Origin: Myxococcales bacterium
GTDB taxonomy: Bacteria > Myxococcota > Myxococcia > Myxococcales > JAKAPL01
DNA: 58,097 bases
Reading direction: 5' to 3'
NCBI GenBank assembly: GCA_021783235.1
Contig: JAJXUD010000025.1
Coordinates: 1 to 58,097 of the forward strand
This document shows, one piece after another, positions 13,818 through 26,765 of this stretch (position 1 is the first letter of the stretch; every line of letters starts with the position of its first letter). The notes under the pieces were generated by a model that was not told the DNA's origin, did no database searches, and saw nothing but the letters and a program-made list of their open reading frames with translations. The translations under genes were made by a program, and so were the position numbers.

Positions 13818-15131
<1,314 letters not shown>

Positions 15132-15217: not shown

Positions 15218-15302
15218 GGAGGAGTGGCCGAGCGGTTTAAGGCGGCGGTCTTGAAAACCGTTGGACGGAAACGTCCCGCAGGTTCGAATCCTGCCTCCTC
15301 CG
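15218..15302 (+). tRNA. tRNA-Ser (UGA)
   Basis: An 85-base cloverleaf: 7-bp acceptor stem GGAGGAG/CTCCTCC, anticodon TGA at 15252-15254 in loop CTTGAAA, long variable arm as in class II tRNAs, and T arm GCAGG-TTCGAAT-CCTGC. The discriminator is G15302. The 3' CCA is not encoded, as CCG follows. Confidence 0.95.
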
Positions 15303-15439
15303 CCGCTCGGAAAAATGAGAATAGAAGGAAGCGCTCCGCAAGGAGAAAGCGCGAGCCGGGCTTCGCCCGGCGAGCGCGCGGGGCGCGGGGGCATCGGAGG
15401 ACGGCCGCAGGCCGCCCGCACGGGCCCCCGACCTCCAAA

Positions 15440-15529
15440 GGAGAGGTGGCCGAGCGGCCGAAGGCACTCGCCTGCTAAGCGAGTATGGGGCCAAAAGCTC
15501 CATCCAGGGTTCGAATCCCTGCCTCTCCG
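15440..15529 (+). tRNA. tRNA-Ser (GCU)
   Basis: A 90-base cloverleaf: acceptor GGAGAGG/CCTCTCC, anticodon GCT at 15474-15476 between stems CTCGC and GCGAG, long variable arm, and T arm CAGGG-TTCGAAT-CCCTG. Discriminator G15529, no encoded CCA. The 137-base gap from the previous tRNA holds a hairpin (GCCGGGC/GCCCGGC near 15356-15372) but no gene. Confidence 0.95.
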
Positions 15530-15599
15530 CCGCAGTTGCAGAAACGCAGTTGAAGGCCGACGAGACGGAGCGACTGGTTCTGTTTCGACGGCCGACATT

Positions 15600-15676
15600 G
15601 CGCCCATAGCTCAGTTGGATAGAGCGTCGGACTACGAATCCGAAGGCCGGAGGTTCAAATCCTCCTGGGCGCGCCA
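15600..15676 (+). tRNA. tRNA-Arg (ACG)
   Basis: A 77-base cloverleaf including the encoded CCA (15674-15676): acceptor GCGCCCA/TGGGCGC, anticodon ACG at 15634-15636 between TCGGA and TCCGA, and T arm GGAGG-TTCAAAT-CCTCC. The encoded CCA contrasts with the two serine tRNAs before it. The A34 is normally edited to inosine by TadA. Confidence 0.95.
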
Positions 15677-15762
15677 GGGAGCGAACGCGAGGTGCCGGAG
15701 CGGCGCCCGCGCGGGGAAGCGCGGCTGCCGCTGCCCTCGGCGGCGACGGGCTGGCAGGTCGA

Positions 15763-15776
15763 TTGATCGCGATCAA
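15763..15776 (+). promoter_or_regulatory. Perfect FNR-type box before the benzoyl-CoA operon
   Basis: TTGATCGCGATCAA matches the FNR consensus TTGAT-N4-ATCAA at every defined base. It sits inside a 16-bp perfect palindrome (15762-15777). Its centre lies 41.5-42 bases before the predicted start of transcription at the had ATG, the usual class II activator position. FNR/CRP-family regulators (AadR, AcpR) are known to activate anaerobic benzoate genes in other bacteria. The regulator gene is not in this window. Confidence 0.8.
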
Positions 15777-15798
15777 TGCGATGCTCGACGGGCCGGTG

Positions 15799-15804
15799 TA
15801 GGCT
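15799..15804 (+). promoter_or_regulatory. Putative -10 element of the had-bcr operon
   Basis: TAGGCT keeps the first, second and sixth bases of the -10 consensus and lies 7 bases before the had ATG. No good -35 box is present, as expected for a class II FNR-activated promoter. It resembles the hsp20 -10 box TAGGTT. It predicts a leaderless transcript. Confidence 0.55.
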
Positions 15805-15811
15805 CGGCCAG

Positions 15812-16897
15812 ATGAGCTATCTCGTCCAGGGCTGGAAGGCGGTGGGTCCGGGGCGGCTCGAGTCGTTCGAGCGCCCGGCGACGTCGCCGGGGCGAGGCCG
15901 CGCGTTGGTGGAGGTCGCCGGCTGCGGCGTCTGCCACACCGATCTCGGCTACCTCTACGACGGCGTCCCGACGAAGCATCCGTTTCCGCTGGTGCTCGGC
16001 CACGAGATTGCCGGCGTGGTGGTCGAGGCCGGCGAGGGCGGCTCCGCCTGGCTCGGTCGCCGGGTCCTCGTGCCGGCAGTCTCGCCGTGCGGCGTCTGCC
16101 GCTGGTGCAAGGCGGGGCGCGCGACCTCGTGCCGCGCCTCGAAGATGCCGGGCAACGACGACGACGGCGGCTTCGCCTCGCATGTCGAGGTCCCGGCCGA
16201 CACCCTCTGTGCGATCGATCCCCCGGGCGGCTCCGGCGGCGGGCCGATCGGCGCCGCGGGGCTCGAGCTCTGGGAGCTCTCGGTGGTCGCCGACGCGGTC
16301 ACGACGCCGCTGCAGGCGATTCGCCGCGCCCAGGTAGGGCCGGGCGACCTCGCCGTCGTGGTCGGCGCGGGCGGTGTCGGGATCTACGCCGTGCAGATCG
16401 CGCGGGCGATGGGCGCGGTGGTGGTCGCGATCGACGTCTCGGACGCGAAGCTCGAGCGGGCGCTCGGTCACGGTGCCTTCTCGGCGCTCTCGGCGAAGCT
16501 CGGGCCCAAGGAGCTCAAGACGGCGCTGCGGCGGGTCTGCTCGGAGACCGGGGCCGCCGGGGACGGCTGGCGGATCCTCGAGACGAGCGGCTCGGTCGCG
16601 GGGCAGGAGCTCGCCTGGTCGCTCCTCACCACCGGCGGCTCGATCTCGGTGGTGGGGTACACCCCTTCGGCCTCGTCGCTGCGCCTCTCGAACCTGATGG
16701 CCTTCGATGCGACCGCCTACGGGAACTGGGGCTGCGCGCCCTCGCTCTACCCGGAGGCGCTCGACCTCGTGGCGCAGGGGACCGTGAAGGTCCGTGGGCT
16801 CGTGCGGCGCGAGCCGATGGGAGAAGCGCCACGTGTGCTCGACGCCGTGCACCGCGGCGAGGTGTCCGAGCGCGTCGTGCTCGTTCCCGGAGCCTGA
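15812..16897 (+). CDS. had: 6-hydroxycyclohex-1-ene-1-carbonyl-CoA dehydrogenase
   Basis: 361 residues, medium-chain zinc alcohol dehydrogenase. The catalytic zinc site is seen in GCGVCHTD and GHEIAGVV. The structural zinc cysteines are in CGVCRWCKAGRATSC. The NAD-binding motif is VVGAGGVGIYAVQIARAMG. The enzyme oxidises the 6-hydroxy intermediate to the 6-oxo ring in benzoyl-CoA degradation. This assignment rests on the family plus the directly following oah, dch and bcr genes. It is the first gene of the operon. The ATG at 15812 is chosen because the FNR-type promoter ends just before it and homology begins there. Confidence 0.92.
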   Translation: MSYLVQGWKAVGPGRLESFERPATSPGRGRALVEVAGCGVCHTDLGYLYDGVPTKHPFPLVLGHEIAGVVVEAGEGGSAWLGRRVLVPAVSPCGVCRWCKAGRATSCRASKMPGNDDDGGFASHVEVPADTLCAIDPPGGSGGGPIGAAGLELWELSVVADAVTTPLQAIRRAQVGPGDLAVVVGAGGVGIYAVQIARAMGAVVVAIDVSDAKLERALGHGAFSALSAKLGPKELKTALRRVCSETGAAGDGWRILETSGSVAGQELAWSLLTTGGSISVVGYTPSASSLRLSNLMAFDATAYGNWGCAPSLYPEALDLVAQGTVKVRGLVRREPMGEAPRVLDAVHRGEVSERVVLVPGA

Positions 16898-16921
16898 ACC
16901 CGCCTCCAGCAGGAGTTGCCC

Positions 16922-18040
16922 GTGCCACTGAATGATCACAATCTGGTTCGCGCCGACCTCGCCTTCGAGCAGATCGGCTACGAGGAGCGGCCCGCCCGCC
17001 GTCCCGACGGCTCGGAGGCCGAGGGGCTCCATCACGTCTGGATCACGCTGCGCAACGAGAAGGAGATGAACGCCTATACGACGGCCGCCCTGCGCGAGCT
17101 GATCCTGGCGTTCCGGCGCGCCTCGAACGACCGCGCGGCGGTCTGCGTGGTGCTCACGGGAGCGGGCACGCGGGCCTTCTGCGCGGGTGGCAACACGCGG
17201 GAGTACGCCGAGGTCTACGCGGGGCGGCCGCAGGAGTATCGCCAGTACCTGCGCCTCTTCAACGACCTCGTGACGGGGATCCTCACCTGCGACAAGCCGG
17301 TGATCTGCCGCGTCAACGGGCTGCGCGTCGGCGGCGGGCAGGAGATCGGCATGGCCTGCGACTTCTCGGTCGCGCAGGACCTCGCCCGCTTCGGGCAGGC
17401 CGGCCCGAAGCACGGCAGCGCGCCGGACGGCGGCTCGACGGACTTCCTCCACCTCTTCGTGGGCATCGAGCGGGCGATGGAGTCGTGCGTGACCTGCGAG
17501 CCGTGGAGCTCCTACAAGGCCGCGCGGCTCGGGCTCTTGACCGAGGTCGTGCCGGCGCTGCGAGTCGACGGCAAGCTGATTCCGAACCCGCTCGTCGTCA
17601 CGGATCGCTGGGTCGACGAGACGGGGCGGGTCGTCCACGGCGAGCCGCGCGAAGGCGAGGCGCTCGCCGCCGGCAAGGCGCTGCTCGAGCGTGGCGAGAT
17701 CGACCTCGCCCCGCTCGACGCTGCCGTCGAGCGGCTCTGCGCCAAGATCCTGATGACCTTTCCGGAGTGCTCCATCAAGACCGTCGAGTCCCTCCGCAAG
17801 AAGAAGCTCGAGCACTGGGATCGCAACCACGAGAGCAGCCGGGCGTGGCTCTCGATGAACATGCTGACCGAGGGGCGCGCGGGCTTCACCGCGTTCCAGA
17901 GTGGCGGCAAGTCCCGGGAGATCGACTTCGTCTTGCTGCGGCAGCGGCTCGCGGCCGGCAAGGTCTGGGACGAGGAGATGTTCGCGGCGATCGCGCCTCG
18001 GTCCGCGGAAGGCGGCAAGGCCGGGGGCAAGCGAGGATGA
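16922..18040 (+). CDS. oah: 6-oxocyclohex-1-ene-1-carbonyl-CoA hydrolase (ring opening)
   Basis: 372 residues, an enlarged crotonase-fold protein. It has the oxyanion-hole segments AFCAGGNTREY and RVNGLRVGGGQEIGMACD, and the GPKHGSAPDGGSTDFL stretch. The length (about 375) and the tail fit Oah, which adds water and hydrolytically cleaves the ring to give 3-hydroxypimelyl-CoA. I chose the GTG at 16922 over the TTG at 16916 because AGGAG (16911-16915) is six bases upstream of the GTG but directly abuts the TTG. Its stop codon overlaps the dch start (ATGA). Confidence 0.92.
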   Translation: MPLNDHNLVRADLAFEQIGYEERPARRPDGSEAEGLHHVWITLRNEKEMNAYTTAALRELILAFRRASNDRAAVCVVLTGAGTRAFCAGGNTREYAEVYAGRPQEYRQYLRLFNDLVTGILTCDKPVICRVNGLRVGGGQEIGMACDFSVAQDLARFGQAGPKHGSAPDGGSTDFLHLFVGIERAMESCVTCEPWSSYKAARLGLLTEVVPALRVDGKLIPNPLVVTDRWVDETGRVVHGEPREGEALAAGKALLERGEIDLAPLDAAVERLCAKILMTFPECSIKTVESLRKKKLEHWDRNHESSRAWLSMNMLTEGRAGFTAFQSGGKSREIDFVLLRQRLAAGKVWDEEMFAAIAPRSAEGGKAGGKRG

Positions 18041-18816
18041 GCGTCCGACTCTCGTTCGAGGAGGGTCGGCGGCTCGCCCGCGTCACCCTCGATCAGGGCA
18101 AGGGAAACGTCATCGACGGGGCCGGGGCGGCCGAGCTCCAGGCGGCCTTCGAGGCGGCGGCGAGCGAGCCCGTCGCCCGTTGCGTCCTCATCGACGCCGC
18201 GGGCCCCCACTTCTCCTTCGGCGCCTCCGTGGAGGAGCACCGGCCGCCGGCGCTCCACGGCATGCTCCGTCGCTTCCACGCGATGCTGAAGACGCTGCTC
18301 GAGCTCCCCCTGCCGACCCTCGTGGCGATCCGCGGGCAGTGCCTCGGCGGCGGGCTCGAGCTCGCGCTGGGGGCGAGCCGGATCTTCGCGCACCCGGGCG
18401 CGCGGCTCGGCCAGGCGGAGATCAAGCTCGGGGTCTTCGCGCCCGCAGGGAGCGCGCTCCTTCCGGCGCGGGTGGGGCAGGCGACGGCGGATCTAATGCT
18501 GCTCACCGGCCGGTCCCTGACCGGCGCCGAGGCGCTCGCCGCGGGGCTCGTGGACGAGCTCTGCGGCCCCGAGGAGGATCCCGCCGCGCAGGCGCTCGCC
18601 TTCGCCCGCCAGTCGTTCTTCGAGCTGTCGCCCGCCTCTCTTCGGATCGCCACCCGCGCCGCCCGCGGCAGACACGCCGCCCGGGCCGTCCAGCGGATCG
18701 GCGAGCTCGAGAGCCTCTACCTGACCGAACTCGCCGCGAGCCCCGACGGGATCGAGGGGATCGCAGCCTTTCTCGAGAAGCGGCCGCCGCGCTGGCAGAC
18801 CGGAGGCGCGTCATGA
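18037..18816 (+). CDS. dch: Cyclohexa-1,5-diene-1-carbonyl-CoA hydratase
   Basis: 259 residues, the usual crotonase size. FSFGASVEEH and RGQCLGGGLELAL are the two oxyanion-hole segments, and GQAEIKLGVFAPAGSALLP is characteristic of Dch. It hydrates the diene produced by benzoyl-CoA reductase to the 6-hydroxy monoene used by Had. The start is fixed by the four-base ATGA overlap with oah, and the end by the same overlap with bcrC, showing translational coupling. Confidence 0.9.
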   Translation: MSVRLSFEEGRRLARVTLDQGKGNVIDGAGAAELQAAFEAAASEPVARCVLIDAAGPHFSFGASVEEHRPPALHGMLRRFHAMLKTLLELPLPTLVAIRGQCLGGGLELALGASRIFAHPGARLGQAEIKLGVFAPAGSALLPARVGQATADLMLLTGRSLTGAEALAAGLVDELCGPEEDPAAQALAFARQSFFELSPASLRIATRAARGRHAARAVQRIGELESLYLTELAASPDGIEGIAAFLEKRPPRWQTGGAS

Positions 18817-19997
18817 GCTCGAACGTGACTGAAGCCGACGAGATCGTGCGGCGCTGCGAGGCGCTCTACGCGGATCTGTCGCTCTCGGCGGTGAAGAGCT
18901 GGCAGGCCTCCCACCCGGGCCGGCCGGCGATCGGGCTCTTGCCGATCTATGTGCCGCGCGAGCTGGTCCACGCCTCTGGCGCGCTCCCGGTCTCGATCCT
19001 GGGCGGCGGTGACCAGATCGACATCGTCAAGGGCGACGCCTGCTTTCAGAGCTACATCTGCCACCTGCCGCGCTCGACGGTCGAGCTCGGGCTTCAGGGT
19101 CGGCTCGAGGCGCTCGACGGATTCGTCTTCCCTTCGACGTGCGACGTCATCCGAAACCTCTCCGGAATCTGGCAGCTGCTCTTCCCGGGGAAGTACGTCC
19201 GCTACCTGGATCTTCCCCAGGCGATGGACCCGAGCACGGGGGGCGAGTTCTACCGGCGCGACCTCGAGGCGCTCGGGGCCGAGCTCGGCCGGCTTCCCGG
19301 CGGCAACGCGCCGACGACCGAATCGCTCGCCACGTCGGTTCGGCTGTACGAGGAGAACCGGCGGGCGCTCGCCACGCTCCGGCAGCTTCGGGCCGAGGCG
19401 CCCTGGCTCGTTCCCCTCGACGAGAGCTACCTCGTCGTGAGGGCGGGGGCCGTCCTGGACGTCGAGGAGCACACGGAGCTGGTTCGGGCCTACGCCGCCG
19501 CCGCGACCCGGAGGCGCCGCAAGGCCGAAGATCGGATCCGGGTCGTGATCGCCGGCGCGTTCTGCGAGCAGCCGCCGCTCGGGCTGCTCCGGACGATCGA
19601 GCGCAGCGGCTGCTACGTCGTGGACGACGACCTCTTCCTCGGGGCGCGCTGGATCCAGCCCACCGAGGCGGAGGATCGCGGCGACCCGCTGACCTCGCTG
19701 GCCCTCGCCTACCTGAACCGGAGCGTCGTGGCCTCGACGCGCTACCAGCCCGATGGCCTGCGCGGCGAGGATCTCGTGCGTCAGGTTCGAGAAAAGCGGG
19801 CGGACGGCGTGATCTTCGCCGCGCCCTCCTTCTGCGACCCCGCCCTCCTCGATCAGCCGCCGCTGCAGAAGGCGCTCGGTGAGGCCTCGATCCCGTTCAT
19901 CACCTTCAAGTACGCGGAGAACACGGGGCAGTTCCAGGCCATCCGCGAGCAGGCAGGCACTTTCTCCGACTCGATCAAGCTCTGGGGTGAAGGATGA
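18813..19997 (+). CDS. bcrC: Benzoyl-CoA reductase, subunit C (substrate-reducing half)
   Basis: 394 residues, a member of the HgdB/2-hydroxyacyl-CoA dehydratase D-component family. Conserved features are IYVPRELVHASGALPV near the N-terminus and cysteines in KGDACFQSYICH, FPSTCDVIRNLSG, AGAFCEQPP and APSFCDP, some of which should bind the catalytic Fe-S clusters. With BcrB it forms the benzoyl-CoA-reducing module in the cytoplasm. The start overlaps the dch stop (ATGA), with CGGAGG upstream. The length fits the Thauera/Rhodopseudomonas (BcrC/BadD) type, judged from memory. Confidence 0.93.
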   Translation: MSSNVTEADEIVRRCEALYADLSLSAVKSWQASHPGRPAIGLLPIYVPRELVHASGALPVSILGGGDQIDIVKGDACFQSYICHLPRSTVELGLQGRLEALDGFVFPSTCDVIRNLSGIWQLLFPGKYVRYLDLPQAMDPSTGGEFYRRDLEALGAELGRLPGGNAPTTESLATSVRLYEENRRALATLRQLRAEAPWLVPLDESYLVVRAGAVLDVEEHTELVRAYAAAATRRRRKAEDRIRVVIAGAFCEQPPLGLLRTIERSGCYVVDDDLFLGARWIQPTEAEDRGDPLTSLALAYLNRSVVASTRYQPDGLRGEDLVRQVREKRADGVIFAAPSFCDPALLDQPPLQKALGEASIPFITFKYAENTGQFQAIREQAGTFSDSIKLWGEG

Positions 19998-21358
19998 AGC
20001 TTCCGATCACCGAAGCGACAGCGAACGCCGCTCCGCCCCCCGCGCCGCTGGCTCGCGCGGCCAGCCAGGTCGTCCAGAGGGACGCGAGCCCGACGGTCCA
20101 GAAGGACGCGAGCATGGACCGCCAGAAGGCGATGCTCGCGGGCTACTTCTCGGAGCTCGCCCACGCGCGCGAGACCGGCCGCAAGGTCGTCTACACCTTC
20201 GTCCCCGGAAACCTGACCGAGCTCATCCGCGCTGCCGGCGCGCTCGGCGTCTACCCGGAGGTGAACGCACTCCAGTCGGCGATGCGCCAGCGCAGCGACG
20301 GTTTCGTGCGCGAGGCGGAACGGCTGGGCCACAACGAGGACGTCTGCTCGTACGTGAAGTGCGACGTGGGCATGCTGGCGAGTGGAAACATCGGGCCCAC
20401 CGGCGAGAAGCTGCCGCCACCGGATCTCCTGCTGCTCAGCTACACCGGCTGCTTCACGTTCCTCAAGTGGTTCGAGCTGCTCCAGAAGGAGTACGGCTGC
20501 GAGATCGCGATGCTCCACGTCCCCTACCAGGCGGACGGGACGGTGACCGAAGACATGCGTCGCTACGTCGCGAAGCAGCTCGCCACCGAGGTCATTCCGA
20601 AGCTCGAGAAGGTGACGGGCCGCAAGGTCGATCTGGACGAGCTCGCCGAGCTCTTGCGGCGCTCGGGCAGGGCCGAGGACGACCTCGTTTGGGTGCTCGA
20701 CAGCGCGAAGAGCCGGCCGTCGCCCATCGATGCCTACTTCGGCGGGGTCTACTACGTCGGGCCGATCTTCACCGCCTTTCGCGGCACCGAGGACTGCGAG
20801 GGCTACTACCACGACCTTCGGGGCGAGGTGGCCGCGCGGCTGGCGCGCCGCGAGGGGCCGGTCATGCCGAACGGCGTGCTCGCCGAGGAGCGCTTCCGGA
20901 TCGTCGTCGAGGGCCCCCCGAACTGGACCCACTTCCGCGACTTCTGGCGCATCTTCTACGACGAGGGGGCGGTGGTCGTGGCCTCGAGCTACACCAAGGT
21001 GGGGGGGCTCTACGACCAGGGTTTCCGGCATGGACAGGATCGGGACCCGCTCCTCTCGCTCGCGGACTACTGCCTCGGCTGCTACACGAACCACTCGCTG
21101 ACGGCCCGGGTCGAGCTGCTCTCCTCCTACGTTCGAGACTTTGGCGCGGACGGGTTCGTGATCAACTCGCTCAAGAGCTGCAACTCGTTCTCGGTGGGGC
21201 AGCTCGTGATGATGCGGGAGGTCGAGAAGCGGACCGGCGTTCCGGGAGGCTTCATCGAGACCGACCTCGTCGACCCTCGTTACTACAGCCAGGCGAACAT
21301 CAAGAACCGGATTGAGAGCTACCTGCAAATGATCGCGCAGCGGAAGGCGAGCGCCTGA
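19994..21358 (+). CDS. bcrB: Benzoyl-CoA reductase, subunit B
   Basis: 454 residues, the second HgdB-like catalytic subunit. Typical segments are VVYTFVPGNLTELIRAAG, NEDVCSYVKCDVG, LLSYTGCFTFLKWFE, ADYCLGCYTNHS and NSLKSCNSFSVGQ. Their cysteines are candidate cluster ligands. About 40 Ala/Pro-rich residues precede the family homology, including a short repeat (QRDAS/QKDAS), so an internal ATG at 20114 is an alternative start. The ATG at 19994 is favoured because it overlaps the bcrC stop codon (ATGA), as do the other junctions in this operon. Confidence 0.93.
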   Translation: MKLPITEATANAAPPPAPLARAASQVVQRDASPTVQKDASMDRQKAMLAGYFSELAHARETGRKVVYTFVPGNLTELIRAAGALGVYPEVNALQSAMRQRSDGFVREAERLGHNEDVCSYVKCDVGMLASGNIGPTGEKLPPPDLLLLSYTGCFTFLKWFELLQKEYGCEIAMLHVPYQADGTVTEDMRRYVAKQLATEVIPKLEKVTGRKVDLDELAELLRRSGRAEDDLVWVLDSAKSRPSPIDAYFGGVYYVGPIFTAFRGTEDCEGYYHDLRGEVAARLARREGPVMPNGVLAEERFRIVVEGPPNWTHFRDFWRIFYDEGAVVVASSYTKVGGLYDQGFRHGQDRDPLLSLADYCLGCYTNHSLTARVELLSSYVRDFGADGFVINSLKSCNSFSVGQLVMMREVEKRTGVPGGFIETDLVDPRYYSQANIKNRIESYLQMIAQRKASA

Positions 21359-21361
21359 GCC

Positions 21362-22702
21362 ATGGCCCTCTTCGTCGGCATCGACCTCGGATCCACCACG
21401 AGCAAGGCCGTCGTGCTCGACGAGCGCGAGGGGATCCTCGGCAAGGGACTCACCAACACCCGCTCGAACTACGAGGTTGCCGCCACGGTGGCCCGCGAGG
21501 AGGCGCTCGATGACGCGCGCCTCGCGCTGCTCGGGCGTGGCCTCGCCGAGCGGATCGGGCCCGAGACGGATCGGCTCACGGCCGAGCTGCGCCGCGCCTG
21601 GGTCGTCTCCCGCTGCGTCGAGCGGCTCCACGCCCTCGGCGCCCGGGTGGCGCAGAACGCCGAGAAGGGCGGCAGCCCCACCGACGCGAAGGCGGTTCGG
21701 TCGCTGTTCGAGGCCATCGAGGGAGAGGCCGACCGGGTCTTCGCTCCGCTCGCCGAGGACCGGAGCCGGTTCTTCCGCGACGTCGTGTCGGCGCGCTTCT
21801 TCGCGGACGCCACGGAGGCTGCGCAGCGCGGGGCGCTGTCGTACGAGGCGGCGGTCAACGCCTACGACCAGGCGATCGTCGCCGTCGAGAACGAGGAGGC
21901 GCCGCTGCCCGCGCAGGCGCGCATCGGCACCGCTCTCGCGCGGGCGAGGCTAGAGCCGAAGGAGCGGACCCTGCTCGAGGACGCTTGGCGAGGTCTGGAC
22001 GAGAAGGCGCTCGAGGTGGGTCGCTACGTCGGGACCGGCTACGGCCGCCAGCTCCTGCCGTTCCCGAAGGAGCAGATCCGCAGCGAGATCCTCTGCCATG
22101 GGCTCGGTGCCCACGCCCTCTACCCCGAGACGCGCACCGTCCTCGACATCGGCGGTCAGGACACCAAGGCGATCCAGCTGGACCCGAAGGGGCTCGTCCT
22201 CAACTTCCAGATGAACGACCGTTGCGCCGCCGGCTGCGGTCGCTACCTCGGCTACATCGCCGAGGAGATGAACCTCGGCCTGCACGAGCTCGGGCCGCTC
22301 GCGCTCTCGGCGACCCGGGCGGTCAAGATTTCGTCGACCTGCACGGTCTTCGCCGGCGTCGAGCTGCGGGATCTGCTCTCCCTCGGGGAGCGGCGGGAGA
22401 ACATCCTGCTCGGACTCCACCGGGCCATCCTGCTGCGGGCCATGAGCCTTCTCTCGCGATCCGGCGGCGTGAACGAGCAGCTCACCTTCACCGGTGGCGT
22501 CGCCAAGAACGCCGCCGTCGTCCACGAGCTGCGGGCGCTCGTGGAGGAGCATTACGGGGCCCGCACCATCAACATCCACGCGGATTCCATCTACACGGGC
22601 GCCCTCGGCGCCGCCCTCTTCGCGAAGCGGGGCGGCGGAGAGGGGCTGCCGGTGGCCAAGCGGCCGAAGCGCGCCGCGGCGGCGCCGCCGGTCGGGAGCT
22701 GA
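21362..22702 (+). CDS. bcrA: Benzoyl-CoA reductase, subunit A (ATPase/electron activation)
   Basis: 446 residues, ASKHA (acetate/sugar kinase, Hsp70, actin) fold. The N-terminal phosphate motif is GIDLGSTTSKAVVLD, and the second is DIGGQDTKAI. A large insertion (about residues 60-240) separates them, as in BcrA/BadF. Cys288 (NDRCAAGCG) and Cys327 (STCTVF) are 39 residues apart and would bridge the 4Fe-4S cluster with BcrD. The subunit couples ATP hydrolysis to electron transfer from ferredoxin. It begins three bases after bcrB. The length fits the Bcr/Bad subtype better than BzdNOPQ (from memory). Confidence 0.94.
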   Translation: MALFVGIDLGSTTSKAVVLDEREGILGKGLTNTRSNYEVAATVAREEALDDARLALLGRGLAERIGPETDRLTAELRRAWVVSRCVERLHALGARVAQNAEKGGSPTDAKAVRSLFEAIEGEADRVFAPLAEDRSRFFRDVVSARFFADATEAAQRGALSYEAAVNAYDQAIVAVENEEAPLPAQARIGTALARARLEPKERTLLEDAWRGLDEKALEVGRYVGTGYGRQLLPFPKEQIRSEILCHGLGAHALYPETRTVLDIGGQDTKAIQLDPKGLVLNFQMNDRCAAGCGRYLGYIAEEMNLGLHELGPLALSATRAVKISSTCTVFAGVELRDLLSLGERRENILLGLHRAILLRAMSLLSRSGGVNEQLTFTGGVAKNAAVVHELRALVEEHYGARTINIHADSIYTGALGAALFAKRGGGEGLPVAKRPKRAAAAPPVGS

Positions 22703-22705
22703 GCC

Positions 22706-23614
22706 ATGGGTGAGGTCGTCACCGCCGGCGTCGACGTCGGCACCGGGGCAGTCAAGGCGGCGGTGGTCCGCAGCGACGGGGGCCGTCAGCCCGAGCTGCT
22801 CGGGGTCCACCGCGAGCGGCTTCTGCGCCGGGATCCAGGTCGCGTCGCCGAGCTCGCCTACGAGAGCGCCCTCCGCGCCGCGGGGGTGACCGCGCGGGAG
22901 GTCGCCTACGTCGCCTCGACCGGCGACGGCGATTCGGTGGCCTTCCGGGACGGCCACTTCTACGGCATGACCACCCATGCCCGCGGGGCCACGATGCTCC
23001 TGCCGGCGGCGCGGTCCGTGGCCGATCTCGGCGCGTTGCACGCCCGGGTCTTCGTGATCGACGGCCGCAGCCGCGTGCTCGGCAGCCGCATGACGAGCCA
23101 GTGCGCGAGCGGCACCGGCCAGTTCATCGAGAACATCGCCCGTTACCTCGGGATCCGGCTCGAGGACGTGGGGCCGCTCTCCCTGACCGCGCCGCGCGCG
23201 GAGGTCTGCAGCGGGATCTGCGCGGTCCTCGCCGAGACCGACGTCATCAACATGGTCTCGCGTGGCATCGCACTCGCCGAGATCGTCCGGGGCATCCACG
23301 AGTCGATCGCCCAGCGCCTCGCGAAGCTCCTGCGGATGGTGAAGGCGCCCTCGCCGGTCGTGCTGACCGGCGGGCTCGCGGCCGACGTCGGCCTTCGGGC
23401 GGAGATCGAGCGGGCGCTGAAGGACGACGGCGGCGCGCCGCTCGAGGTGGTCGCCCACGCGCACTCGGTCCACGCCGGCGCCCTGGGCGCCGCGCTCTGG
23501 GCCGCGCACCGGCTCGCCCGCCTCGAGGCTCGTTCAGCCGTCGGACGGCGCCAGCAGGAGATCGGCGAAGCGGCCGTCGTCGTCCGTCCAGAGCCGGTCG
23601 ATCCGCAGCTCTGA
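22706..23614 (+). CDS. bcrD: Benzoyl-CoA reductase, subunit D (ATPase/electron activation)
   Basis: 302 residues, the smaller ASKHA subunit. The first phosphate motif is AGVDVGTGAVKAAVV. Cys133 (TSQCASGTGQF) and Cys172 (SGICAVLAETDV) are 39 residues apart, the same spacing as in BcrA. HSVHAGALGAALW marks the normal end of the family. The last roughly 27 residues are an extension that runs through the 3' end of egtD on the other strand. No terminator is visible between the two operons. It closes the had-oah-dch-bcrCBAD operon. No benzoate-CoA ligase or beta-oxidation genes follow. Confidence 0.93.
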   Translation: MGEVVTAGVDVGTGAVKAAVVRSDGGRQPELLGVHRERLLRRDPGRVAELAYESALRAAGVTAREVAYVASTGDGDSVAFRDGHFYGMTTHARGATMLLPAARSVADLGALHARVFVIDGRSRVLGSRMTSQCASGTGQFIENIARYLGIRLEDVGPLSLTAPRAEVCSGICAVLAETDVINMVSRGIALAEIVRGIHESIAQRLAKLLRMVKAPSPVVLTGGLAADVGLRAEIERALKDDGGAPLEVVAHAHSVHAGALGAALWAAHRLARLEARSAVGRRQQEIGEAAVVVRPEPVDPQL

Positions 23615-24517
23615 GGCGAGCGCCAGCTCCGCGAGCTCCTCGCGCGAGTACTTGTGGGAGCTCTCGGTGTGGATCTCCTCGCCAGGCTCGAACGAGAGTT
23701 CGAGGTCGAGCCCTTCGATGCGGACGCGCTGCGCGCGCCGGCTCACGAGGAACATGTCGACGCAACCGCGCACGACGTCGTAGCGCGCGAGGTGGCGGAA
23801 GCCCGCGAGGTCGAACTGCCCGCCGAGCTCGCGGTTGATGCGCGCGAGCAGGTTCAGGTTGAAGGCCGCCGTGACGCCTTGGGCATCGTCGTAGGCGGCC
23901 TCGAGGGTGGCTCTCTCTTTGCGCAGGTCCACCCCGAGCAGGAGCCGGTCGGCGGGCCCGAGCGCCTCCCGGACGCGGCGAAGGAAGCGGGCCGCCTCGG
24001 CGCGGTCGAAGTTGCCGACGTTCGACCCGAGCCAGAGGAGGAGCTTCGGCTGAGCCCAGCCGGAGAGCCGACGAAGCCCTTCCTCGTAGTCGCCGTGAAC
24101 CGCGAGGACGCGCAGTGAAGGGTAGCTGCCGAGCAGCGAGGCGGCGCTCTCCTCGAGGGCGCTGCGCGAGATGTCGACGGCGACGTAGGTGGCGGGACCC
24201 TCGCGCAGCAGCGGCTCGAGGAGCAGACGAGTCTTGACGGCGCTGCCGCTCCCGAGCTCCCAGACGGAATCGACGCTCCCGACGCGGTCCAGGATCTCCG
24301 CGGCGCGGCGCTCGAGGATCTCCCGCTCCGCGCGGGGTGGGTAGTACTCGGGGACGCCGCAGATCGCCTCGAAGAGGCGCGACCCTTCGGCGTCGTAGAA
24401 CCAGCGGCAGGAAAGCCGCCTGGGACGGGCCTCGAGCCCCGCGCGGACGTCTGCCGCGAAGTCGCCGCCGTCGACGGCCTCGGCCGCCGCGAGCTCGAAG
24501 CGTCCGGTCGTCGTCAC
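23534..24517 (-). CDS. egtD: L-histidine N-alpha-methyltransferase (hercynine synthase)
   Basis: 327 residues, the usual EgtD size. It has the SAM motif WELGSGSAVKTRLLL, YVAVDISRSALEES, LLLWLGSNVGNF and AAFNLNLLARINRELGG, and a C-terminal EIHTESSHKYS. It trimethylates histidine to hercynine, the precursor of ergothioneine and selenoneine. It starts at the GTG at 24517, nine bases after the stop codon of senB, and is the last gene of the minus-strand operon. Its final 81 bases overlap bcrD; the overlapped C-terminus looks conserved for EgtD, so EgtD probably owns this stretch. Confidence 0.93.
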   Translation of the reverse strand: MTTTGRFELAAAEAVDGGDFAADVRAGLEARPRRLSCRWFYDAEGSRLFEAICGVPEYYPPRAEREILERRAAEILDRVGSVDSVWELGSGSAVKTRLLLEPLLREGPATYVAVDISRSALEESAASLLGSYPSLRVLAVHGDYEEGLRRLSGWAQPKLLLWLGSNVGNFDRAEAARFLRRVREALGPADRLLLGVDLRKERATLEAAYDDAQGVTAAFNLNLLARINRELGGQFDLAGFRHLARYDVVRGCVDMFLVSRRAQRVRIEGLDLELSFEPGEEIHTESSHKYSREELAELALASELRIDRLWTDDDGRFADLLLAPSDG

Positions 24518-24525
24518 GGCCGGCC

Positions 24526-25461
24526 TCACAGCCCCCCGAGGAGCCGCCGCCAGGCCTCGCGCTCCCGTGCGGGGGCCACGAGGGAGCGCAGCCGCCGGCA
24601 GTGGCGGGCGAGCGCTTCGTGAAAGGCGTCGTCCCGTTCGACCCGGGCGAGCAGCCGCGCGAGCGACCGGGTGTCGCCGACGGGAAAATAGCCGCGGTAG
24701 GTGGCGCCGAGCAGGCCGACGGAGCCGGGGATTCGCGACGCGAGGATGGGAGTGCCCATGGCCAGCGCCTCGGAGATCACGTTCGCCCCGCCCTCGGCGC
24801 GGGAGCTGAGGACGAGGGCTCTCGCTCGCGCGAGCCGCCGCAGAGTCTCGGAGCGGGGGCGTTCGCCGAGCCAGCGGTAGCGTGGGTTGCGACGCTCCTC
24901 GGCTCGCGCCCGCCGCGCCAGCGCCTCGTCCAGCGCGCCGCCGAGGTGAACAATCTGGAGCCGGGAGGCCTTGGGCAGCCGCCGGCTCGCGAGGGCGGCC
25001 CGGAGCGGATCCTTGACGGGTCTCAGGTGGCCGATGACGCAGACGTCGAAGCCCCTGGCCGGCGGCGGGCCCGCCGGGGTCGGGACGGACTGGAGGATCA
25101 CGCGGGCCTTGGCGCGCTGCTCCGGCGGCAGAGCCTCGATCGCGAGTGGCTGGAGGACGACCAGGCGATCGGCCAGCGCGAGGCACTCCGTCCCGCCGCG
25201 ACCGAGGCCGCAGTAGAGGTCCGTTCCGGTGAGCGCGACGACGAGGGGGGAGTGGGGATTCCGATCGCGGAAGCGGAGCACGGACGGACGGCTCTTGACG
25301 GCGTGGAGCGCGATGAGCGCGTCGGCCCGCCCGCCGAGGTATTCGGTCTCGACGACGACGCGGTGGCCGAGCGAGCGCAGCAGGCGGGCCCAGCGTCGGG
25401 CCGTGACCCGGTTGCCGCTGCGCGAGTCGTAGGATGCCGGCGTGACGAGGTGGAGGGTCAT
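24526..25461 (-). CDS. senB: SenB-type glycosyltransferase (selenosugar synthase)
   Basis: 311 residues, GT-B fold. The N-terminal VTPASYDSRSGNRVTARRWA, LIALHAVKSRPSVLRFR and LVVALTGTDLY are the signature of the TIGR04348/SenB family. The C-terminal half has the donor-binding pattern EGGANVISEALAMGTPILAS. SenB joins selenophosphate and a UDP-sugar to make a selenosugar for selenoneine synthesis. The assignment is from family memory plus context between senA and egtD. Its start overlaps the senA stop codon (ATGA). A general glycosyltransferase role is the alternative but fits the neighbours less well. Confidence 0.82.
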   Translation of the reverse strand: MTLHLVTPASYDSRSGNRVTARRWARLLRSLGHRVVVETEYLGGRADALIALHAVKSRPSVLRFRDRNPHSPLVVALTGTDLYCGLGRGGTECLALADRLVVLQPLAIEALPPEQRAKARVILQSVPTPAGPPPARGFDVCVIGHLRPVKDPLRAALASRRLPKASRLQIVHLGGALDEALARRARAEERRNPRYRWLGERPRSETLRRLARARALVLSSRAEGGANVISEALAMGTPILASRIPGSVGLLGATYRGYFPVGDTRSLARLLARVERDDAFHEALARHCRRLRSLVAPAREREAWRRLLGGL

Positions 25462-26765
25462 CGGGCGCAGCTGCGAAAGCCGGCGAGGACGTCGCGCCGG
25501 TCCGGCGTGTAGAAGTTGCGGTAGCGGGGCCGGATGAGGCGGGAGCGCGTCGCCCACGCGCCTCCCCGCAGCACCTTGTGGGTTCCGAACCAGGGCTTCG
25601 AGTAGTCCTCGTAAGGATCCGCCGCGAAGCCTGGGTACGGGGCGAAGTCGCTCTGGGTCCACTCCCAGACGTTGCCGACCATCTGCCGGCAGCCGAAGGC
25701 GCTGTCTCCCGCCGGGAGCGCATGGACCGAGACGGGCCCGCCGCTGGCGCCGTCGAGGTTCGCCCGCTCCGCCGTGGGCGGCCCGTCACCCCAGGGGAAG
25801 CGCCGCGCGGCGTCGGGCGGCGCCCCCGGTTCACCGATGGCGGCCAGCTCCCACTCCGCCTCGGTCGGCAGTCGGCGTCCGGCCCAGCGGCAGTAAGCAT
25901 CGGCCTCGAACCAGCTCACGTGGAGCGCCGGCAGATCAGGCTCGAGATCGAGCCAGCGGTCGAAGTGGCGCCGCCGCCAGACGCGCCCCTCGCGTCGCCA
26001 GTAGACGGGGTGGAGGGCCTGGGCCTCCGATCGCCAGCGCCAGCCGGCCTCGCTCCAGAGCTCCCTTCTTTGGTAACCCTTCGCCTCGACGAACTCGAGG
26101 AACTCGGCCTGGGTGACGGCGGTCCGGGCGATGGAAAAGGGCGAAAGCTCGACGGCGTGGGACCACTTCTCGTTGTCGAAGACGAACGGCTCCTCCCGCG
26201 GAGAGCCGAGGCGGAAGCGGCCGCCGGGGATCCGGACGTCGCCCGCGATCCGCGCCACCGCCGGCGGCGCCGCGGTCGCCGGCGCCGGCGCCGGCGCCGG
26301 CGCCGCATAGCCGAGGGTCTGACGCGTGTAGGCGAACGCCTCCCCGTGCATGTCCTCGTGAAAGAGCGCGAGGAGGAGGAAATACCACGGGGGCTCGTCC
26401 TCCAGCCGCTGGAGCCGCTCGAGAAGCTCGGTGAGCCCGGCGGAGAGATCGCGGAGCGTCTCTCCCATGTCCGGCAGCGGGAGCTCCCAGCGGAGGTCAT
26501 GCGCGACGCGGCTCGAGTCGTAGAGCGCGTCCGCGTTCCCGCGCCGAGGCGGCAGTCGAAAGACGTGACGGGAGAGCCAACGCTCCTGGAACCAGCCGAC
26601 GTGGCCGACCTCCCAGAGCGGCGGGTTGACGATGGGGATGCGGGGGACGACGAGCTGCTCGTCCGAGAGATCCTCGACGAGTGAGAGGGTCCGCTGCCTT
26701 GCGTCGGCGAGCCAGGCGACCACCGTCGGGAGGTCGAACGCGTGGGGGGTGGGCGACGCGGCCAT
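25458..26765 (-). CDS. senA: EgtB-family iron oxygenase, probable selenoneine synthase SenA
   Basis: 435 residues. The N-terminal DinB-like domain carries the iron ligands His55 (GHVGWFQ) and His136/His140 in HEDMHGE, the HxxxHxE motif. The C-terminal FGE-sulfatase/formylglycine-type domain (about 175-435) ends VLRGGAWATRSRLIRPRYRNFY. EgtB enzymes form a C-S bond on hercynine, and the SenA branch forms a C-Se bond using the selenosugar. I favour SenA because the next gene is senB-like and translationally coupled. An ordinary EgtB cannot be excluded by reading alone. No senC/selD is in the window. A GGCGCC repeat encodes an Ala-Pro linker between the domains. Confidence 0.8.
   Translation of the reverse strand: MAASPTPHAFDLPTVVAWLADARQRTLSLVEDLSDEQLVVPRIPIVNPPLWEVGHVGWFQERWLSRHVFRLPPRRGNADALYDSSRVAHDLRWELPLPDMGETLRDLSAGLTELLERLQRLEDEPPWYFLLLALFHEDMHGEAFAYTRQTLGYAAPAPAPAPATAAPPAVARIAGDVRIPGGRFRLGSPREEPFVFDNEKWSHAVELSPFSIARTAVTQAEFLEFVEAKGYQRRELWSEAGWRWRSEAQALHPVYWRREGRVWRRRHFDRWLDLEPDLPALHVSWFEADAYCRWAGRRLPTEAEWELAAIGEPGAPPDAARRFPWGDGPPTAERANLDGASGGPVSVHALPAGDSAFGCRQMVGNVWEWTQSDFAPYPGFAADPYEDYSKPWFGTHKVLRGGAWATRSRLIRPRYRNFYTPDRRDVLAGFRSCAR
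26281..26304. repeat. senA: GGCGCC hexanucleotide repeat in senA
   Basis: Four perfect GGCGCC copies encode an Ala-Pro run in the linker between the DinB-like and FGE-like domains of SenA. The unit is six bases, so copy-number change would keep the frame and only alter linker length. Confidence 0.85.

Follow-up and report, generated by a model that had tools for sequence, protein, structure and literature searches.

The window (the whole 58,097-nucleotide stretch of DNA analysed here) contained seven overlapping or closely spaced genes in the order had-oah-dch-bcrC-bcrB-bcrA-bcrD, as in a single operon. Genes of this operon were assigned with NCBIfam models for the benzoyl-CoA reductase pathway, and the presence of bcrCBAD together with had, oah and dch identified a benzoyl-CoA operon of the bcr type, with bcrA, bcrD and dch scoring under equivalog cut-offs. 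No substrate-specific regulator was recognised beside the had-bcr operon. The features of the promoter region and operon were as follows.

15699-15732, plus strand: G+C-rich inverted repeat (strong hairpin) between tRNA-Arg and the FNR-type box; a possible tRNA-gene terminator, but no T run follows
15763-15776, plus strand: FNR-type box TTGATCGCGATCAA, exact consensus, centre 15769.5 (direct reading, window scan, genome pattern search)
15799-15804, plus strand: -10-like element TAGGCT, agreeing with TATAAT at T1, A2 and T6 and beginning 29.5 bp from the centre of the box
15811-15812, plus strand: predicted transcription start, giving a leader of 1 or 0 nt (deduced from the place of the -10 element and the class II geometry)
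15812-16897, plus strand: had, 6-hydroxycyclohex-1-ene-1-carbonyl-CoA dehydrogenase (TIGR03201, 410.6 bits, cut-off 338.65)
16916-18040, plus strand: oah, 6-oxocyclohex-1-ene-1-carbonyl-CoA hydratase (TIGR03200)
18037-18816, plus strand: dch, cyclohexa-1,5-dienecarbonyl-CoA hydratase (TIGR03189, 253.3 bits, under the 292.5 cut-off), overlapping the oah stop
18813-19997, plus strand: bcrC, benzoyl-CoA reductase subunit C (TIGR02263)
19994-21358, plus strand: bcrB, benzoyl-CoA reductase subunit B (TIGR02260)
21362-22702, plus strand: bcrA, benzoyl-CoA reductase subunit A (TIGR02259, somewhat under the equivalog cut-off)
22706-23614, plus strand: bcrD, benzoyl-CoA reductase subunit D (TIGR02261, slightly under the equivalog cut-off)

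Two neighbouring gene groups were also noted. Genes for tRNA-Ser-TGA, tRNA-Ser-GCT and tRNA-Arg-ACG (15218-15676) were located immediately after a gene (13851-15131) resembling that of seryl-tRNA synthetase, and a gene for a selenoneine synthase SenA-like protein (522.6 bits, over the cut-off) adjoined that for an EgtD-type histidine methyltransferase (25458-26765 and 23534-25900, both minus strand), the pair being convergent with the bcr operon.

Direct reading of the sequence confirmed the original prediction of an exact FNR consensus inside a 16-bp palindrome upstream of had. Thus, TTGATCGCGATCAA is enclosed by the perfect palindrome ATTGATCGCGATCAAT (15762-15777), the two 8-nt arms of which were 100% complementary by inverted-repeat analysis. 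A role of this palindrome as a terminator was rejected, as no T run was present downstream and folding was no better than that of shuffled sequences. The single exact box in the 58-kb window compared with 0.01 expected from dinucleotide shuffles, and the genome-wide scan that had been proposed, when run over the 4.58-Mb genome, returned 5 exact sites as opposed to 0 for the reversed pattern. With one mismatch or fewer allowed, the corresponding numbers were 29 and 4. The majority of one-mismatch matches were within coding sequence and without a -10 element, and these are likely to be chance occurrences. These genome-wide statistics, and those given below, were obtained from pattern searches and from one 458-kb sample.

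The arrangement of elements between the box and had was that of a class II activated promoter, with the box near -41.5 relative to the predicted start, a -10-like element spaced accordingly and the -35 element lacking. The ATG of had occupies 15812-15814, and TAGGCT lies between it and the box. The positions that had been given for TAGGCT and for a start at, or one base before, the had ATG agreed with the sequence. The centre of the box would be at -41.5 if transcription began at 15811, the predicted start on which this value depends, and at -42.5 if it began at 15812. A sigma-70 -35/-10 pair was not found between 15100 and 15900, and an extended -10 (TGn) was absent from the had promoter. TAGGCT by itself is weak as a -10 element, matching TATAAT at 3 of 6 positions. 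The proposal of class II geometry without a -35 box was supported by the missing -35/-10 pair and by conservation of the 29.5-bp offset of the -10 element in other had promoters (see below).

A second ATG, in frame with had, is present at 15776, where it begins on the last base of the box. The start at 15812 was preferred because the N-terminus of Had read from that position, MSYLVQGWKAV, aligned with those of relatives (MERLVRGWRAV, MEHVIRGWRMM, MDTIIRGWKMM and MATRIRGWRMM); in relatives whose Had is 61-76% identical, the first residue corresponds to M1 at 15812. In six relatives (L026, L030, L031, L037, L038 and L039) the aligned start was the only in-frame start and the ATG at 15776 had no counterpart. 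The latter was thus rejected as the main start of had.

Examination of the genome for fnr homologues, which the original prediction had called for, revealed one FNR-type protein, with both cluster-type cysteines and E-SR residues. The gene (G000:C24:90917-91585, minus strand) encodes 222 amino acids with cNMP_binding and HTH_Crp_2 domains (PF00027, 4.4e-8; PF13545, 3.8e-14; both over the cut-off), the latter being the genome's single strong DNA-binding domain of the CRP/FNR type (1.5e-14). In an alignment with E. coli FNR (MG1655 record) and 29 Myxococcales homologues, residues E209, S212 and R213 were identical to those of E. coli FNR and invariant across the homologues, as were C20 and C23 of a CxxC motif and the central C122. 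E-SR residues recognise TTGATN4ATCAA (PMC9765128). In the C24 protein a further cysteine follows CxxC at 10 residues; the third conserved cysteine of this regulator family is 9-10 residues after CxxC as opposed to 5 in E. coli FNR. In view of this spacing, oxygen sensing by the C24 regulator through a [4Fe-4S] cluster is likely, though only something we infer. Two other candidates for a protein that reads the box were rejected, a Crp-type regulator since a search of the genome with Pfam Crp PF00325 gave no match, and the second-best CRP-like protein (C31, L007) since it is without the E-SR helix. A perfect FNR box was also noted about 1.7 kb from the FNR gene (C24:89212, L013:5213), between divergent genes, one side consisting of an acyltransferase/nitronate monooxygenase-like gene followed by an acyl-CoA dehydrogenase gene and the opposite side of a phospholipid methyltransferase-like gene.

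Of the various lines of sequence evidence, comparison with relatives gave the strongest support for FNR control of had. In G002, a genome of the same family, a perfect box, TTGATCGAGATCAA, was present upstream of had, with TATCCT at 29.5 bp and a centre-to-ATG distance of 45.5. Perfect had boxes were likewise found in L038 of the Archangiaceae (TTGATCTCGATCAA, centre-to-ATG distance 45.5) and in L039 of the Myxococcaceae (two boxes, at 42.5 and 93.5), and L037 carried TTGACTTTGGTCAA, a symmetric variant, at 42.5. Among the perfect had boxes of Myxococcales, the half-sites were kept while the four central bases and the spacer varied. No FNR box was seen upstream of had in G001 (L036), a member of the same family that keeps the order had-oah-dch-bcrC-bcrB and encodes an FNR-type regulator despite its box-less had. 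The idea that the box is missing there because had stands alone was wrong, as had is followed by oah, dch, bcrC and bcrB. A box upstream of had was also absent from several more distant Myxococcales with both had and an FNR homologue. Overall, the box or its symmetric variant occurred in 4 of 12 had-bearing relatives with an FNR gene and in 0 of 5 without one, a distribution in keeping with co-occurrence of box and regulator gene but with numbers too few for a test.

A broader comparison of 35 dereplicated boxes upstream of had from several phyla indicated one offset of maximal likeness to TATAAT, 29.5 bp from the centre of the box, where the mean match was 2.57/6 compared with 1.37/6 for shuffles (z = 7.1). 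The peak held when the window was left out (z = 6.8). The 29.5-bp peak, which does not depend on the window, corresponds to class II geometry, and TAGGCT coincides with it.

Taken with the genomic evidence, these comparisons support, short of proof, the reading of the had box as an oxygen-dependent FNR switch. With a probability of about 0.8, the box at 15763-15776 would be the operator of an FNR-type activator of had-oah-dch-bcrCBAD, acting in class II fashion on a leaderless start at 15811 or 15812. In the mechanism that we infer for FNR binding, oxygen response, start site and translation of had, the FNR homologue would hold an intact Fe-S cluster under anoxia and dimerise, the dimer would bind the palindrome at -41.5 and stand in for the absent -35 element, and bound FNR would recruit RNA polymerase to the weak -10 element TAGGCT. 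Transcription would then begin at 15811 or 15812, placing the 5' end of the mRNA at the start codon of had or one base before it, and the message would be translated without a Shine-Dalgarno leader.

Metabolic context was provided by other genes of the genome. The oxygen-dependent benzoyl-CoA route was represented by boxC and boxB at C45, and a benzoate-CoA ligase gene was present at C128; an FNR box with one mismatch or fewer was not found in either of these stretches. An oxygen switch makes sense given this aerobic pathway and ligase in the same genome, and a shared ligase plus an FNR-switched bcr operon is a design that might be expected.

Other explanations of the box differ in how much of this evidence they accommodate. 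The box may be a genuine CRP/FNR-family operator the regulator of which senses a signal other than oxygen, such as NO, as DNR and NNR do, or another redox signal. DNR-type proteins also possess the E-SR helix and the TTGATN4ATCAA motif, the best match of the C24 regulator among PDB sequences was DNR (6.8e-10), with A. fischeri FNR weaker, and the cysteine spacing of the regulator is unlike that of E. coli FNR. This explanation is nevertheless unlikely, given that the genome's one strong CRP/FNR homologue retains N-terminal and central cysteines that are invariant across Myxococcales, and that the pathway controlled is the oxygen-sensitive one, with an aerobic counterpart encoded in the same genome.

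Transcription of the operon from upstream, either by read-through from the tRNA genes or from a separate promoter, would yield a had message with a leader, translated from 15776 or 15812, and would leave the box as a repressor site or roadblock or without a role. The three tRNA genes upstream are on the same strand as had, the last ends at 15676, a T-tract terminator was not detected in the interval before had, and the ATG at 15776 is in frame. This possibility appears improbable in view of the conservation in relatives of both the distance from box to start and the -10 offset, the lack of a counterpart of the 15776 start in the same six relatives and the strong G+C hairpin that separates tRNA-Arg from the box. 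Even less probable, and strongly disfavoured, is a chance palindrome that matches the FNR consensus without regulatory meaning. A single site and a weak -10 element are what such an explanation has to offer, against an expectation of 0.01 exact sites in the window, retention, in other Myxococcales operons, of a box at this location whose central bases have changed, and the presence of a cognate regulator in the genome.

The preferred reading, activation by an FNR-type protein at a leaderless start, was extended by examination of other FNR boxes of the genome, at which near-leaderless starts, as predicted from sequence, appear to recur. Thus, a box on the minus strand of C24 was followed by CAAAAT at 29.5 and ATG at 41.5 (acyltransferase/nitronate monooxygenase-like gene), and a minus-strand box of C10 by TAGCGT at 28.5 and ATG at 41.5 (HlyIII family gene). 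On C72, a minus-strand operon (unknown protein, class II aldolase, IF-2B family) had TAGGCT at 28.5 and GTG at approximately 40.5 from the box, and a plus-strand radical-SAM gene had TACCCT at 29.5 from the box centre with a leader present. The combined pattern of box, -10 element and ATG occurred at 3 sites in this genome and 2 in G002; the reversed pattern occurred at 0 in all 117 genomes. In the 458-kb sample, TANNNT was found at -14 to -12 of candidate ATGs 13 times compared with 3.5 expected (Poisson 8e-5), and leaderless genes may therefore amount to a few per cent. Leaderless starts in the source genome are thus plausible on sequence grounds. A tentative generalization, about which we are more doubtful than confident, is that much of the FNR regulon of this Myxococcales family consists of fused units (box, 20-22 bp, -10 element such as TAGNNT, 6-10 bp, start codon) that couple oxygen control directly to leaderless translation, and that the form with a long leader and the GGTAN6TACC operator, known from other had operons, was either replaced by the compact had promoter or had a separate origin from it.

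Activation of this kind has precedents. In E. coli FNR class II promoters, TTGATN4ATCAA at -41.5 replaces the -35 element. The window shares this geometry of box and -41.5 position and, in C20, C23, C122, E209, S212 and R213, the corresponding regulator residues, but differs in the spacing of the third cysteine (9-10 rather than 5 residues after CxxC), in its leaderless start as predicted and in the G+C-rich -10 elements of its lineage (TAGGCT, TATCCT, TACCCT). At the bzd PN promoter of Azoarcus sp. CIB, AcpR activates from a site at -41.5 and can be substituted by E. coli FNR (PMC6678401), and the mechanism is therefore already known. PN resembles the had promoter in that an FNR/CRP-family site at -41.5 lies over the -35 position of an anaerobic benzoyl-CoA operon; it differs in that its operon is of the bzd type and in possessing a leader, a ribosome-binding site and three operators for BzdR, whereas the operon in the window is of the bcr type, led by had, from Myxococcales and apparently leaderless. 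AadR of Rhodopseudomonas palustris, an FNR/CRP-family global regulator of the anaerobic benzoyl-CoA pathway that is listed with AcpR (PMC4424350), belongs to a different phylum and operon and is likened to the had switch by regulator role only. An earlier description of such a switch in Myxococcota was not found in the open-access literature. What is new here is the lineage, the type of operon and the compact start, the mechanism itself being known.

With the had box, a little-studied Myxococcales group thus offers a concrete candidate, open to testing, for an oxygen switch between two branches of benzoyl-CoA degradation, the aerobic box and the anaerobic bcr route. Since FNR control of had operons at -41.5 appears to recur across phyla, the oxygen logic of anaerobic aromatic degradation would be predictable from sequence, and recurrent near-leaderless starts would provide simple cases in which to test how leaderless translation is coupled to transcription driven by an activator.

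In Betaproteobacteria and Alphaproteobacteria the same box was frequently seen ahead of had operons, in most cases 80-210 bp before the start. In these FNR-box promoters (found among L041-L114) a -10-like hexamer was present at the identical 29.5-bp offset, and the order had-oah-dch-bcrC-bcrB of L045, L055 and L063 was that of the window. They differed from the window in having a long leader and usually a second palindrome, GGTAN6TACC. With one mismatch or fewer, this palindrome preceded had at 54 of 97 loci from several phyla (including L019-L021, L023-L026, L030, L042, L045, L055, L066, L068, L070-L072, L077, L103, L106, L114 and others), often in overlapping copies such as GGTATTGCGGTACCGCAATACC, and was downstream of the FNR box where both were present; it was absent from the clade of the window. 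A repressor of the benzoyl-CoA pathway, as yet undescribed, may use it as its operator; identification as the operator of MbdR was rejected, the MbdR site being ATACN10GTAT.

Further observations concerned FNR boxes elsewhere in the genome. Three FNR-like boxes were clustered within 5.3 kb of C72 (C72:43231-48521, L017:7232-12522), where they precede a gene for a B12-binding radical-SAM protein (DUF4070), a second radical-SAM gene and the class II aldolase/IF-2B (MtnA-like) operon, which resembles an oxygen-independent route of methylthioadenosine salvage. A perfect box at C55:19369 (L016:7370) was followed by TTGACG-17 bp-TGTACA and then by a gene for a cysteine-rich repeat protein, a geometry more like class I than class II.
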